The notes under the pieces were generated by a model. That model did no database searches. It was given only the letters and a program-made list of their open reading frames with translations, and was not told where the DNA came from. From Deltaproteobacteria bacterium (lineage in GTDB: Bacteria > Desulfobacterota > Desulfarculia > Adiutricales > Adiutricaceae): a stretch of 42,629 nt of DNA. A program made the position numbers and the translations under genes. Shown one piece after another: positions 15,946 through 22,285 of this stretch (position 1 is the first letter of the stretch; each line of letters begins with the position of its first letter). The stretch lies in assembly GCA_031281735.1 (NCBI GenBank), contig JAITEZ010000414.1, positions 1 to 42,629 on the forward strand. Direction: 5' to 3'.

Positions 15946-16938
15946 TTACTCCTCGTCCAGCTCGTCCAGGAGGTCGGAGACGTCGGACATGTCCGTGCCA
16001 TCCACCGAGAGCCCCTCGTCGTCGTCAAGGGAGTCCAGGCCGTTCATGTCCGCGTCCCCGAACTCGGCCCCCCCGTCCGGGGCCTCCTCCAGGCTGTCCT
16101 GCGGCACCATGAAAGTCTCGGAGGCCTCCCTGGGCTTGGGACCCGACGGACGCGGGGCCGCCGCGAAGGGCTGGGCCTGGGGGGCCTCGCCTGCCCCCTC
16201 GTCGTCGATCACCTCCACGTCGAAGATGGTGTCGGGCTGGGGCTCGGGTTCCGGTGCCGCCCGGGGGGGCACGACGGTCGACCCCGGTGCCACAGCCACT
16301 TCCGCGTCCTCCAGAAGCTGGGAGACGTCCATCTGGCCGGTGTCGGTCGGCTGAAGGGAAGGCGGCACCATCTGCGGCGGCGGAGGCGGCGCCATCTGCG
16401 GGGGCGGAGGCGGCATCTGTGGTGGCGGAGGCGCCATCTGCGCGGGCGGCGGGGGAGGCATCTGCGCGGGCGGCGGCAGGGGCGGCGGCGGCGGCGCGGG
16501 GGGCCCCGGGGGTTCCGGGAAGGCGCCCAGGTTGCCCATGCCGAAGGCGGGGGCGGGCGGCGGCGGTCCCGGCGGCTCGGGGAAGGAGCCCATGCCGAAG
16601 GCGGGGGCGGGTTGCGCCCCCAGGCCGGGGGTGTAGGACGGGACCCCGTCCGCCTGGGGGGCGGGGAAGGAGTCCGGAGGCGGGCCGGCCTGGGGAAGGT
16701 CGGGGAAGCCCAGCGTCTCCGGGGGTTGCCCGAAACCGCCGGGGTCGGTGCCCGGGAAGCCCTCACTCCCGGAGGTTTCCGGGGGTGCCTCGCCCGAGAG
16801 TATCGCGAAGAAGTTGACGTTCCCCGGGACGGGTTCCGTCAGGAAGAGGAGCCGCCGCAACGGGTTCAGGTCCTTGCGGCACTTGGGGCAGTTGCTGTTG
16901 TGGTCGAAGCTGTTGTAGCCGCACTTGGGACAGAGCAT
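15946..16938 (-). CDS. Hypothetical protein: N-terminal double-Cys zinc ribbon, proline/methionine-rich repeat middle, acidic C-terminus
   Basis: MLCPKCGYNSFDHNSNCPKCRKDL; (PPPPxQM)n tract; DVSDLLDELDEE tail. Internal ATG chosen over the ORF start. Confidence 0.7.
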   Translation of the reverse strand: MLCPKCGYNSFDHNSNCPKCRKDLNPLRRLLFLTEPVPGNVNFFAILSGEAPPETSGSEGFPGTDPGGFGQPPETLGFPDLPQAGPPPDSFPAPQADGVPSYTPGLGAQPAPAFGMGSFPEPPGPPPPAPAFGMGNLGAFPEPPGPPAPPPPPLPPPAQMPPPPPAQMAPPPPQMPPPPPQMAPPPPPQMVPPSLQPTDTGQMDVSQLLEDAEVAVAPGSTVVPPRAAPEPEPQPDTIFDVEVIDDEGAGEAPQAQPFAAAPRPSGPKPREASETFMVPQDSLEEAPDGGAEFGDADMNGLDSLDDDEGLSVDGTDMSDVSDLLDELDEE

Positions 16939-17706
16939 GTGCGCCTCCGCGGGGCGTTCGGGCGGGAGCCCGTCTCCTGCCGTCGCTCCAGGATGACGGA
17001 GCCCCGCAGGCATCCGCGCGGGACGCCTTCCGGCGGGGACGCCTCCCCGGGGCCCTCCGCCGGGAGGCGCCGAGGTGGACCACCCCTCAGCGGGGAAGAC
17101 GTCACGGGACGGGCTCGGGTTCTCAGGCCGTTCGGGCGGCCCGGCGGCGCCGGTTTCGGCGGACGGGGCCCGGGCGGCGCGGACAGAGGATCCGCGCCTT
17201 CCGGCGGAACAAGGATTATAGCTCAGGAGACGATGAAAGGGAACAGCAGGCGGCGTTTCCGGACGCCCGGGGGCACGCGCCGATGCCGCGCCGCGCGCGC
17301 GGAACGCGCGGCGCCGGCCCGCGGCGCCGGAGCGGCGCGGACGTCACGGGCGGCCGGAGCTGCGGGAGGGGCCCCTCAGGCGGATCGCGTTCCTTGCGGA
17401 CGTGGTGCCATGGAGACTTGCGGGACGTCATCGCCGTCTTCAGGGGACATGGCGGGTCGATCTGCAGCACCCGCCTCCGCCCACCCTTGGCATGCAACGC
17501 GCGTGACGTTATGGCGCGGACGGCACCGGCGCAGTTGATCCCGGCAGCTCCGGCTCGGCTGGGATGGGAGTAGGGAGTGCGGGTATGGGAAACGAAAGTG
17601 GGGAGCTGAGGGATCCGGGGAGATCTTGCACGGGGCTTGGTGCGGACAGGAAGGCGGGCTTGCAGAGGGTAGGGGCGGGGGGAATGGCTGAGACAGGACA
17701 ATAAAA

Positions 17707-17748
17707 GGGCCGGATTGTGGAAAGCCAGGTTTTTCCACGCTCCGGCCC
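17707..17748 (-). terminator. Two-segment hairpin followed on the minus strand by TTTTATTG
   Basis: gggccgga..gtggaaa-loop-tttccac..tccggccc; the minus-strand 3' side reads TTTTATTG. Confidence 0.5.
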
Positions 17749-18673
17749 AGTCCCGGTGTAGCGGAAGAACGGAATCGTCCGGTTCAACAGGTGGGAGGCT
17801 GTATATGTAGTCAATCCCGTCCTTCAGCTGGAAGACATCTTACATAAACTGATTCTCAATTGCAATAGTTTTTTTAAAAAAAATACTTAATGATTTCAGT
17901 ATGTTATCCAAAAGCAGGCAGAGAAATCAAAACTAATTTTGGGAAAAACCGGGAAGAGAGGTTGCTCCACGTCCCGGCGGGTTGGCGGGAAACCGCCGGG
18001 CTGCCAAACGCCTTCCGGAAAACCTGAACCTCATCGCCTTCCCAGTGCCGCAAGGTGTTTCTCTGCCCTTGCCTTGCTCCCGTTGCCCGGGCCCTGGCTG
18101 ATCCTGTCGGCCACGGCACGGACGATGGCTTTCGGCCCGAGAGGGGGGGAGCCCGCCACGCGTCGGCCCGCCATCCGGGGCCGTCTCAATCCGGTCGCGG
18201 GGAGGGCTAGGGTAAACACTTCGGAGGTCTGGGAAGGCGAGGCCGGTGCCGGAGGAGGGCCTGGGCAGCACCTTCGCGCAGGTTACGCAGGATCCCTGCG
18301 GACGCAGAAAGCACCGGAAGCGTAGGGGGAACACCGGAAACGGAAGGAAAAATTACGCTGATGTAGGAAAACTCCTTAGCTTGAGGGTAAGGGAAGAAGT
18401 AGAGTATTGACAAAAATATCTGTTATTACAACATGTTGAAAGATGACTGTATCTTCCTCCCTATTGGCCTTGAAGTTGCTAACTAGTCTGCGTTACCGGA
18501 ACCAGGCCATCCACAGGCAGGAACAGCATCTGCCTCTGCCGCGCCAGCATCTGAAAATCCGCGACATCCCTCCTCTGCTTCCCCCGGCTCGAGACCCACC
18601 CGCCGTCCTGGCGGCGATTTTCCGGTTCCCGCTAAACAACCCCAAAGACGCGCGGCAGAATACCCTGATACTC

Positions 18674-18717
18674 AAAATGGGGAAAGACCGTCCACTAACG
18701 GCGCTTTCCCCATTTTT
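18674..18717. terminator. Bidirectional terminator-like inverted repeat
   Basis: AAAATGGGGAAAG-(accgtccactaacggcg)-CTTTCCCCATTTTT, 13-bp perfect outer stem with an inner ccgt/acgg stem. Confidence 0.6.
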
Positions 18718-19567
18718 GCATGAGGCGACCGGGGAGGATCCGGGGAACCGCCCCCCGGGGTTCCGCTTCGTTCTCGCGCGCTCCCGTGGAGGCAGGGACG
18801 GGGATCCCGGCGGCAGGTTACGGGAGCATCCGTCTGCAACGCGGGACGCGGGACAACCGCAGACGGGTAGGGCGCCTGTCTCCAGACTGGCGGCCCAGGC
18901 CAGCGGGCGTCCCCTGGCTCCATGCGGTTCACGGCCCGCCCCCCGTACCGGCATCGGGTTCCTTGTCCCTGGCTAGAGCGGGGCGTGATATGTGCTCCCT
19001 CAGCCCAGGCGGTCAGGACGGGGGATGCCGTGCCTGAAGGGTGCTTTCCCGATTTTCTCGCGAGGCTGTCCAGGAAAGGCGAGGGGATCGTCCTCCGGGA
19101 CCCGGGATGATCAGGGTTACAGGATGCTCAGGGATCAGGAATCATAACTCTTAGCGGGGGAGGAAGGACTATGGGTATCAAGGCGACAGGCTCCGTCTGC
19201 CTCCGTCCCGGCGGGCGTCTCCGGAGGCGTCCCGAGGAGGGTTTCGTGGGTAGCGACCCAAGCGGCGGTTGGCGGCAAGGTCGCTTACGCGTTGGCAGGG
19301 CGGGTCGGAGCCAACCTGGATGACGTGTAGGGGGCGGCCCGGTAGGGAGCGCGGAGTAAAAAATAACCGGTTGACCTAATGGAGTGTCAATTGTACTCGG
19401 TGGCGGGGCGGCGGCCGCAGGCAACGGGTCGTCCCTGCGGAGTGGAAGGCTCGCGGCGGGCGCCGGGCGGGGGTGGCGGCCTAGTGAGGGCGGGCAAGTC
19501 CGTGAGGCAAGGGTTCGGCCCGATCGGCCGAGGGATGGCCTGTGAAGACTGTCATGTTCCGGGAATA

Positions 19568-19596
19568 ATTGGCACGCCACGTGCTAAAGCATATAA
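19568..19596 (+). promoter_or_regulatory. Sigma70-type promoter TTGGCA-N17-TATAAT (also fits a sigma54 -24/-12 pattern TTGGCACG-N4-GTGCT)
   Basis: ttggcacgccacgtgctaaagcatataat: 5/6 match at -35, 17-nt spacer, 6/6 match at -10. Confidence 0.6.
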
Positions 19597-19601
19597 TCGC
19601 T

Positions 19602-19790
19602 GGAGCCAGGGATATAAACGGATCACACTGTTAAGCGACGCCCATTTCTCTTCCCCTGCCGTTCGCCCACCCATCATTCATCATGACTCACGCTCCCCCT
19701 GGCGGCAATCTTTAACCAGTTCCCACCCCCCATGGCGTCGTATAATTCAGGCGGGCTGAGGCCGAAAGGCCTCGCCCGCCTGAGTGTTTC
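19602..19790 (+). ncRNA. Candidate orphan small RNA
   Basis: Downstream of the promoter above; gccaggg(19604-19610)/ccctggc(19697-19703) closing helix; C-rich single-stranded tracts; ends at a 16-bp GAAA-capped hairpin (19747-19783). No convincing ORF. Confidence 0.35.
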
Positions 19791-20151
19791 GGGGGGGTAG
19801 CCGTTCCGGCGCGGGATTAGCGATGCGGAAGGGGGGGGCGGTGCTACGCCGTCCCGGCGGCGCGGCCGGTTTCCGCGCGGAAGCTATTTCCCCGCCGCGG
19901 GTTCGGTGAGATTGATCTCGGTTCCCGCCCGGGGATATGATTAAGACCCGTCCCCTGCTTGCCGCGACGGCGAGTCCGGGGTTACGGTAAATTCGCGGTT
20001 CATCCGCTGGCGGCCTGCGCAGGGTCTTCCGCGACCCGCCAGGGCGTCGCGTTCCTGGCGGGGAAGTCTAACCGGCGCATGCCCTGCCTGCGGGCCGTTC
20101 CGCGGCTTCGCGGCGCAGGGATCCGCAGGGCCTTCCGGAGGCAGCGTACCC

Positions 20152-20242
20152 CCCTCATTCCGTGAAGGCAAGGATTTGTGGCTCTCACTGGGAAGGCCAG
20201 GGGCTTGGCCCTCATTCCAGGAAGGCCAGGAGCTTGGCCTCC
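20152..20242. repeat. Three imperfect tandem repeats of about 28 bp overlapping the ribE stop codon
   Basis: Minus strand: gccaagctcctggccttcctggaatgagg / gccaagcccctggccttcccagtgaga / gccacaaatccttgccttcacggaatgagg. Confidence 0.75.
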
Positions 20243-20886
20243 GGTGGAGCCGCAGGCTCCGGGGCCGCGCCGTCCCCCGCCTGCCGGGAGGCTTCCGCCT
20301 CCCTGCCTGGGAGGAGGGCCTCCACGTAGCGGGCGACGAGATCGGCTTCCAGGTTCACCACGTCGCCGGGATGCAGGTCGCCCAGTGTGGTGGCGGTGAG
20401 GGTCTGGGGTATGACGTTGACGTCGAAGGCCCCGCTGCCCGCGGCGTTCACGGTGAGGCTCACCCCGTCCACGCAGACGGAGCCCTTGGGGATTATCAGC
20501 CGCGCTATCCCTGCGGGGGCCCGGAAGGAGAGGCGAACGCTCCTGCCGTCCCTGGCGGCGGAGAGGGTCTCCCCCAGGCCGTCGACATGCCCGGAGACCA
20601 GGTGCCCCCCCAGGCGGTCGGAGAGACGGAGGGCCCTTTCCAGATTCACGCGGCGGGCGGTCGCCAGGGTCGAGCGGGAAAGGGTCTCGGCGGATGCGAA
20701 GGCCTCGAAGGAGCCGCCGTCCAGGAGCCGGGTCACGGTGAGGCAGACGCCGGAGACACAGACGCTCTCTCCCAGGATCAGGGGGGACTCCCAGGCGAAG
20801 CCTGGGGCTAGCGTGAGAGTGGCGTCCGGGCCGGCCCTCCTGAGGGAGGCGATCCTGCCGGTCCCGTGGACGAGGCCGGTGAACAT
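20212..20886 (-). CDS. ribE: Riboflavin synthase, alpha subunit
   Basis: MFTGLVHGTGRIASL, LGESVCVSGVCLTVTRL, DRLGGHLVSGHVDGLGET, IPKGSVCVDGVSLTVN, GDVVNLEADLVARYVEALL. Confidence 0.93.
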   Translation of the reverse strand: MFTGLVHGTGRIASLRRAGPDATLTLAPGFAWESPLILGESVCVSGVCLTVTRLLDGGSFEAFASAETLSRSTLATARRVNLERALRLSDRLGGHLVSGHVDGLGETLSAARDGRSVRLSFRAPAGIARLIIPKGSVCVDGVSLTVNAAGSGAFDVNVIPQTLTATTLGDLHPGDVVNLEADLVARYVEALLPGREAEASRQAGDGAAPEPAAPPEAKLLAFLE

Positions 20887-21088
20887 GGCTATCCTTTCCG
20901 CCGGGGGCGGTCTGTCGAGGGGGGCGGGCGGGCAGGCGAGCGACCCCGCGCAGACGCCTTCCGCGACGGCCGCCGCCGCGGGGCCGGCCGCGCGCCCGTG
21001 CATCGCGGGAACCCTGGCCGGGCCGTCCCGTTCCGTCGGCAAGGCGGCCCGGGTGACGGGATGCCTGACGGCCCGGACGGCGGCCGTC

Positions 21089-22285
21089 CTAGCCCTCCTC
21101 TTCCAGGTGACCGGAGGGGCCGTCCTCAGGGAGGTCGAGGAAGCCGGGGGGCGGGGTGAAGGCCCCCTGGGGCCGGACGACGAAGTGGATGTCCGGGCCC
21201 TTGCGGGCGATGCGCAGGATTTCTGCCCCCCTGGCATCGGTGAGCTTCTCCACCCCCGCGCCCCCCAGCATGCTGGGGGCGTCCTGGCCGCCCAGGAACA
21301 TGGGGGCGATGAAGACGTGGACGAGGTCGGCCACCCCTTCGTCCAAAAGCGCCGAGGCGGCCAGGGTGGCCCCTGGCTCGATGAGGACGCTCTGGACCTC
21401 CAGCTCTCCCAGGGCCTCCAGGACCTTCCCCAGGGAGAGGCGGCCGCGCCCGTCCCAGGGGATGTGGATGACGCGCACGCCCGCTGCCGAGAGCTCGGCC
21501 ACGGCAGCGGGCGGCGCGTCCGGGGCGCAGAAGCTGACGGTGGGCCCCCCGTAGGAGGGATCGAAGAGCTTCAGGGAGGCGGGGAGCCTCAGGCCCGGAT
21601 CGAGCACGCAGCGCATGGGCTCGCGGTGCATCTTGCGGCGGCCCCAGGGCCGCGCGGAGAGTTCCGGGTCGTCCTTTGCGGCGGTGGCCCGGCCGATGAG
21701 GATGGCGTCAACCCCCGCGCGCAGGTGGTGGCTGTAGTTGCGGGCGACCTTGGAGCTGATCCAGCGGGAGTCGCCGGCGCGGGTGGCGATCTTGCCGTCC
21801 AGGCTAGCCGCGGTCTTGAGGATCACGAAAGGCCTGCGGGTGAACTGCCACTTGACGAAGAACTGGTTGAGGTCGTAGGCCTCGCGGGCCAGGAGGCCCC
21901 GGCGGGTCTCCACCCCGGCGTCCTCCAGAGCCTGGGCCCCCCCCCGCGCCTGCGGGTTGGGGTCGGGTATGGAGTAGTAGACCTTCTCGATGCCGGCGGC
22001 AACTATCAGGTCGGTGCAAGGCCCGGTGCGGCCGGTGTGTCGGCAGGGCTCGAGGTTGACGTAGAGCTCCGCCCCAACGGTCTGCCTTTTGCCGGCGGCC
22101 GCGAGGGCCGCCGCCTCGGCGTGGGGGAGCCCGGGGCCCGAATGCCAGCCGGTGGAGACGATTTTCCCCTTCCTGACGATCACCGCGCCCACCAGGGGAT
22201 TGGGCGAGACGAGGCCCCAGCCGCGCCTCGCGAGCCGCAGGGCCTCCTTCATGAAGGTTCTCTCTTTGTCTGTCCAATGGATCAT
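21089..22285 (-). CDS. ribD: Bifunctional diaminohydroxyphosphoribosylaminopyrimidine deaminase / 5-amino-6-(5-phosphoribosylamino)uracil reductase
   Basis: MKEALRLARRGWGLVSPNPLVGAVIV, HAEAAAL, NLEPCRHTGRTGPC, RPFVILKTAASLDGKIATRAGDSRWISS. Confidence 0.93.
   Translation of the reverse strand: MIHWTDKERTFMKEALRLARRGWGLVSPNPLVGAVIVRKGKIVSTGWHSGPGLPHAEAAALAAAGKRQTVGAELYVNLEPCRHTGRTGPCTDLIVAAGIEKVYYSIPDPNPQARGGAQALEDAGVETRRGLLAREAYDLNQFFVKWQFTRRPFVILKTAASLDGKIATRAGDSRWISSKVARNYSHHLRAGVDAILIGRATAAKDDPELSARPWGRRKMHREPMRCVLDPGLRLPASLKLFDPSYGGPTVSFCAPDAPPAAVAELSAAGVRVIHIPWDGRGRLSLGKVLEALGELEVQSVLIEPGATLAASALLDEGVADLVHVFIAPMFLGGQDAPSMLGGAGVEKLTDARGAEILRIARKGPDIHFVVRPQGAFTPPPGFLDLPEDGPSGHLEEEG

Follow-up and report, generated by a model that had tools for sequence, protein, structure and literature searches.

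Does the long intergenic region beside ribE in a termite-gut bacterium contain an RNA gene and, if so, what drives its transcription and what may the RNA do? The window, that is, the whole stretch of DNA analyzed here, comprises 42,629 nt of contig JAITEZ010000414.1 (assembly GCA_031281735.1). The ncRNA gene is placed on the plus strand at 19596–19790, with the covariance model spanning 19599–19790, and its product is ~190 nt long. It is convergent with ribE, which encodes riboflavin synthase alpha (20212–20889, minus strand; Pfam Lum_binding, 2.2e-40). Upstream of ribE lies ribD (21089–22285, minus strand; Pfam RibD_C), and ribD-ribE is transcribed leftwards, ending at 20212. The other side of the RNA gene is occupied by a gene for a zinc-ribbon/proline-rich protein without Pfam match (15946–17013, minus strand), which is syntenic in distant genera. 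The region between the zinc-ribbon gene and ribE (17013–20212) is unusually long, with ~3.2 kb lacking a convincing gene, and the RNA occupies 0.2 kb of it.

A first-pass annotation of this DNA had proposed an orphan non-coding RNA gene of ~185 nt, pointing to promoter hexamers, a closing helix, C-rich tracts and a GAAA-capped hairpin. All of these motifs are found upon reading the sequence, some of them shifted by one base, and the C-tracts are present as it described them. The proposal is supported here, with a size of ~190 nt and conservation across a bacterial family. On the comparative evidence presented below, a structured RNA gene very probably exists at this locus. The RNA is previously undescribed and is a member of no Rfam family tested. 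The annotation had recognized no 6S, SRP, tmRNA or RNase P RNA and had proposed an Rfam search. In line with that reading, Rfam 15 at gathering and relaxed thresholds gives only a tRNA in the whole window and only chance matches at ten homologous loci, with no known-RNA match for the element. Moreover, the RNA folds 2.4 SD better than shuffled sequences, and no conserved small ORF was found among its homologs.

Distribution and synteny

The RNA is present in 24 genomes from nine genera of one family, all termite-gut ‘Deltaproteobacteria’ MAGs that we infer to be Adiutricaceae, within class Desulfarculia. This Desulfobacterota family was described from termite guts (PMC9137090), and it includes endosymbionts of flagellates living in the termite gut (PMC11257099, PMC9137090). 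When 60 related genomes were searched with a BLAST-type method, four of the five congeners proved to carry the element, with 73–86% identity over the aligned part. The fifth congener gives no ribE match either, so the corresponding contig is probably missing. A covariance model built from five sequences identifies full-length copies in 12 further family genomes (E down to 2.5e-24), and further members were found by inspection of ribE loci and with a second covariance model. Upstream sequence is available for 23 of the 24 copies, the one in G002 being cut by a contig end. In addition, a DNA pattern scan returned 39 matches, of which 11 are real and the rest chance. The real ones all belong to ‘Deltaproteobacteria’ MAGs of a single termite-gut isolate series (isolates Gx485, Roe453, Pcl387, Im510, and Nc350); ten were established by the covariance model, and one, cut off where the examined sequence ended, was later confirmed in G007. 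The Gx485 and Roe453 MAGs were obtained from Glyptotermes and Roisinitermes, both lower termites (PMC11707648).

A sample of 395 genomes spanning the phylum yielded no credible copy outside the family. The weak covariance-model matches in the class and phylum that were read were rejected, having no upstream sigma54 site and in several cases looking like coding sequence. Within the family, neither genus g6 (seven genomes, G010, G017, G022, G025, G028, G031, and G034, one of them in 3 contigs) nor G013 gave a credible copy, so the RNA is not indispensable. The four g6 members checked possess ribE, and the RNA has likely been lost or has strongly diverged in this genus. Inside the window, GCTCTAGCCAGGGACAAGGAACC at position 18979 on the minus strand resembles the RNA 5′ end and has no sigma54 site; the resemblance is probably due to chance. 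It was discarded as a second copy, the covariance model giving no score there.

At nearly every locus examined the RNA adjoins the convergent ribE, and the synteny of ribD-ribE and the zinc-ribbon gene is kept. Such constant closeness is what a cis-acting element would show, be it a leader, a riboswitch or a structure at the ribE 3′ end, with no independent RNA gene involved. We give this reading very little weight. The RNA comes with a promoter and a terminator-like hairpin of its own, and its distance from ribE ranges between tens of bases (G029) and ~5 kb (G023). Moreover, the RNA points at ribE from the opposite strand, so that no gene lies nearby downstream on its own strand.

Nearly every carrying genome has one full copy of the RNA, at the same locus. 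In G007 (contig C47, locus L112, minus strand), the main copy at 2439–2633 is accompanied ~0.9 kb away by a second copy at 1549–1733. This natural decayed duplicate has lost the −24 promoter element and part of helix P3; loss of the former is expected if the −24 element matters. The duplicate and the large hairpin could be taken to mean that what looks like an RNA gene is mobile or repetitive DNA, either a REP/BIME-like element or the remnant of a transposon. The single-copy synteny contradicts this explanation, as do the compensatory changes in the pseudoknot and a sigma54 site held at a near-fixed distance, and we attach virtually no probability to it.

A pseudoknot fold with compensatory changes

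The fold is built from four helices. P1 pairs GCCAGGG near the 5′ end (19605–19611) with CCCTGGC (19697–19703), and the small hairpin P2 (CGG-ATCACA-CTG) occupies 19619–19630. The long-range helix P3 joins TTAAGCGACGCC (19631–19642) to GGCGTCGTATAA (19734–19745). The stem of hairpin P4 (19692–19706) surrounds the P1 3′ strand, which sits in its loop. Comparison of the homologs strongly supports a pseudoknot, in which P1, formed between the 5′ end and the P4 loop, crosses P3. The first-pass annotation had described P1 as a closing helix; its pairing is real, but the fold is a pseudoknot, and the long-range P3 had been missed.

P1 is unchanged within the genus and occurs outside it as the compensated variants GCCGGGG/CCCCGGC, GTCAGGG/CCCTGAC, and GTCGGGG/CCCCGAC. 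P3 is strongly variable, and all seven of its core pairs change on both sides. Summed over the homologs' own 5′ and 3′ strands, the P3 duplex energy is −252.5, compared with −156 ± 14.5 for permuted partners (0/5000), and the permutation test of P4 likewise gives 0/5000. The P4 stem has ~3 bp in the window's genus and 4–6 bp in most other genera, as in UUGCC-U-CCCUGGC-GGCAA and CACC-A-CCCCGAC-GGUG, where the loop is again the P1 3′ strand. Most other genera also have one more hairpin, placed between P4 and the C-rich linker.

Covariation, which the annotation had proposed to examine, was assessed in 20 sequences aligned with MAFFT. In the pseudoknot model 91.8% of the cells are paired, and 25 of the 32 pairs change on both sides, with 85 double-change cells. 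These values stand above both sets of controls, the shuffles giving 12 pairs and 21 cells (0/500 match) and the partner strand slid by 1–3 columns yielding no more than 14 pairs and 19 cells; the helices were picked after viewing the sequences, and the controls consist of shuffles and slides without a phylogenetic null. P1 and P4 could form together, with the 5′ tail docked in the hairpin loop, or they could alternate. An additional stem of an early alignment (stem c, TGCC/GGCA) was dropped, being broken by G004 and having its bases accounted for by P1 and P4. The fast-evolving g7 members L128 (G029), L127 (G023), and L126 (G026) have a P1 that is weak or contains many G-U pairs, yet they retain the sigma54 site and the terminator hairpin. 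These loci are useful for asking which helices are essential.

A sigma54-type promoter and a terminator-like hairpin

Two promoter-like sequences overlap upstream of the RNA. The annotation had put forward as its headline a near-consensus sigma70 promoter, and TTGGCA (19569–19574), a 17-nt spacer and TATAAT (19592–19597) are indeed present. It had mentioned a sigma54-type −24/−12 site only as a side remark, which turns out to be the better promoter call. The site, TTGGCACG-CCAC-GTGCT, extends from 19569 to 19585, with the −24 GG at 19571–19572 and the −12 GC at 19583–19584. In the window, TTGGCACG-N4-GTGC has the exact sigma54 spacing, and TTGGCACG-N4-(A/G)TGC is intact in the aligned congeners. 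A TGGC-type −24/−12 site occurs in all 23 copies with upstream sequence, ending 10–18 nt (mostly 13–16 nt) before the start of the RNA model; the chance of such a site at that position in shuffled upstream sequence is ~0.0009 per sequence. Counting from the −12 element at 19584, transcription is predicted to start at ~19596, just before a conserved GCU.

The opposite assignment, with transcription mainly from TTGGCA-N17-TATAAT and an accidental or secondary sigma54 site, appears very unlikely. Its appeal lies in an 11/12 consensus match in the window genome, where the 3.25-kb region holds two such sites against 0.5 expected. The TATAAT hexamer is confined to this genome, being replaced by unrelated sequence in every aligned relative. 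In addition, a start at ~19604 would lie inside the conserved 5′ end and remove the GCU just upstream of P1. Since TATAAT is restricted to the window genome and the −24/−12 site is shared by all copies, the RNA is most likely driven by a sigma54 promoter. Dual control by both sigma factors, as suggested by the annotation, finds no support beyond the window genome.

The gene for sigma54, rpoN, is found in 30 of 37 family genomes, including 12 of 12 good-quality ones, and went undetected in the MAG from which the window comes (86% complete). A search upstream of the RNA homologs revealed no shared activator motif: NifA and NtrC sites are not above chance, and no simple dyads were found. Upstream palindromes are in generic excess without preferred spacing, as judged against mononucleotide shuffles only. 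The nifH gene is widespread in the family, so that a link to nitrogen physiology can be tested; its distribution does not track the presence of the RNA.

The 3′ end of the RNA carries a terminator-like element (19747–19789), composed of the 16-bp GAAA-capped hairpin (19747–19783) and a weak U-tract (GTGTTT). The hairpin is present as annotated, and its stem covaries. The weakness of the T-run, also remarked on in the annotation, is real in the window, where the hairpin is followed by GUGUUU; the congeners have CUGUUUU, and G008, G015, G018, and G021 have canonical full U-tracts. Given these full U-tracts in several relatives, the 3′ hairpin most likely serves as an intrinsic terminator whose quality differs between genomes.

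Possible function of the C-rich linkers

The first linker, between the P3 5′ strand and P4, contains TGCCG...GCCCACCC (19657–19672), a candidate target-pairing segment whose loose family consensus is YGCCG and then a tract containing CCC. The YGCCG columns are conserved in the family alignment, with GCC nearly invariant, and a U/C/A-CCC tract is present in 21 of 23 sequences. The mean predicted unpaired probability of this linker is 0.70, as against 0.53 for the whole RNA. The 3′ linker, between P4 and the P3 3′ strand, is also C-rich, with a mean predicted unpaired probability of 0.81. The C-rich segment AGTTCCCACCCC (19718–19729) is invariant within the genus, as is AGUUCCCACCCC. One of the three C-tracts overlaps the P1 3′ strand and is thus largely paired. 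According to these predictions, two mostly unpaired C-rich linkers are compatible with an anti-Shine-Dalgarno role. The C-rich linker differs between genera, so that no one fixed seed is evident. Across the genus, the 11-nt complement of the invariant segment was found only at the RNA locus itself and at one site in G001, and no shared site emerged, so any mRNA pairing must be shorter.

Judged from sequence, the RNA probably regulates other genes. As to how, we moderately favor a reading as a new family of pseudoknotted regulatory sRNAs that would depend on sigma54, end at an intrinsic terminator and act by mRNA pairing. In the proposed mechanism, RNA polymerase with sigma54, switched on by an enhancer-binding protein, would produce the ~190-nt transcript, in which the 5′ end pairs with the P4 loop to form P1, crossing P3. 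This scaffold would keep the two C-rich linkers single-stranded, and in target mRNAs the linkers would bind ribosome-binding sites that are rich in purines. Regulation would occur in trans and without Hfq, under whichever condition activates sigma54.

The same sigma54-dependent structured transcript might instead sequester a protein, as CsrB, CrcZ, and 6S RNA do, with the pseudoknot as scaffold and GCCG/CCC as recognition motif. The tightly conserved complex fold and the nearly invariant linker GCC agree with this possibility, as does the lack of an obvious shared mRNA complement. Moreover, no Hfq gene (PF17209) was found in any of 37 family genomes, the search detecting it in five control genomes, and no RF00013-type 6S RNA was found in the element or in 12 family genomes, the model detecting it in controls, E. 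coli and B. subtilis among them. By eye, however, the RNA has no repeated protein-binding motif, neither a CsrB-like GGA array nor CrcZ-like A-rich repeats, and the long bubble hairpin of 6S is missing, while single-stranded C-rich stretches are typical of antisense sRNAs. Protein sequestration is retained as a tentative alternative, on the unlikely side. More speculatively, the pseudoknot of 5′ tail and hairpin loop may itself be the active device, acting through protein binding or P1/P4 switching as a sigma54-induced global regulator in the termite gut, in bacteria apparently without Hfq or a recognizable 6S RNA; we regard this as rather improbable.

The preferred reading, regulation by mRNA pairing, would, if true, mean that a sigma54-controlled sRNA regulates genes in bacteria lacking detectable Hfq, a tangible example of RNA-based control that dispenses with the customary chaperone. 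The locus adds a well-supported RNA family with a pseudoknot backed by compensatory changes, in a bacterial family known largely from MAGs. Its alignment and covariance model could seed an Rfam family.

Comparison with known systems

The RNA resembles 6S RNA (RF00013) in its length (~190 nt) and in being single copy per genome, and differs from it in giving no model match, lacking an extended bubble hairpin and having a sigma54 promoter. With Qrr1-5, GlmY/GlmZ, and CrcZ/CrcY of Gammaproteobacteria it shares the organization of a free-standing intergenic gene with a −24/−12 promoter and an intrinsic terminator, presumably under an enhancer-binding protein. These gammaproteobacterial sigma54-dependent sRNAs act with Hfq or Hfq/Crc, and GlmY acts with RapZ. 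In contrast to them, the present RNA is pseudoknotted and has no Rfam match, and no Hfq was found in its family. Predicted unpaired UCCC-type segments suited to Shine-Dalgarno pairing are a feature it has in common with the Rsa RNAs of Staphylococcus and LhrC of Listeria; the term ‘UCCC motif’ is used of sRNAs together with Shine-Dalgarno, for example in PMC4132741 and PMC9266662. Unlike the Rsa RNAs and LhrC, which belong to another phylum and have other promoters and folds, the present RNA holds its C-rich segments in the linkers of a pseudoknot.
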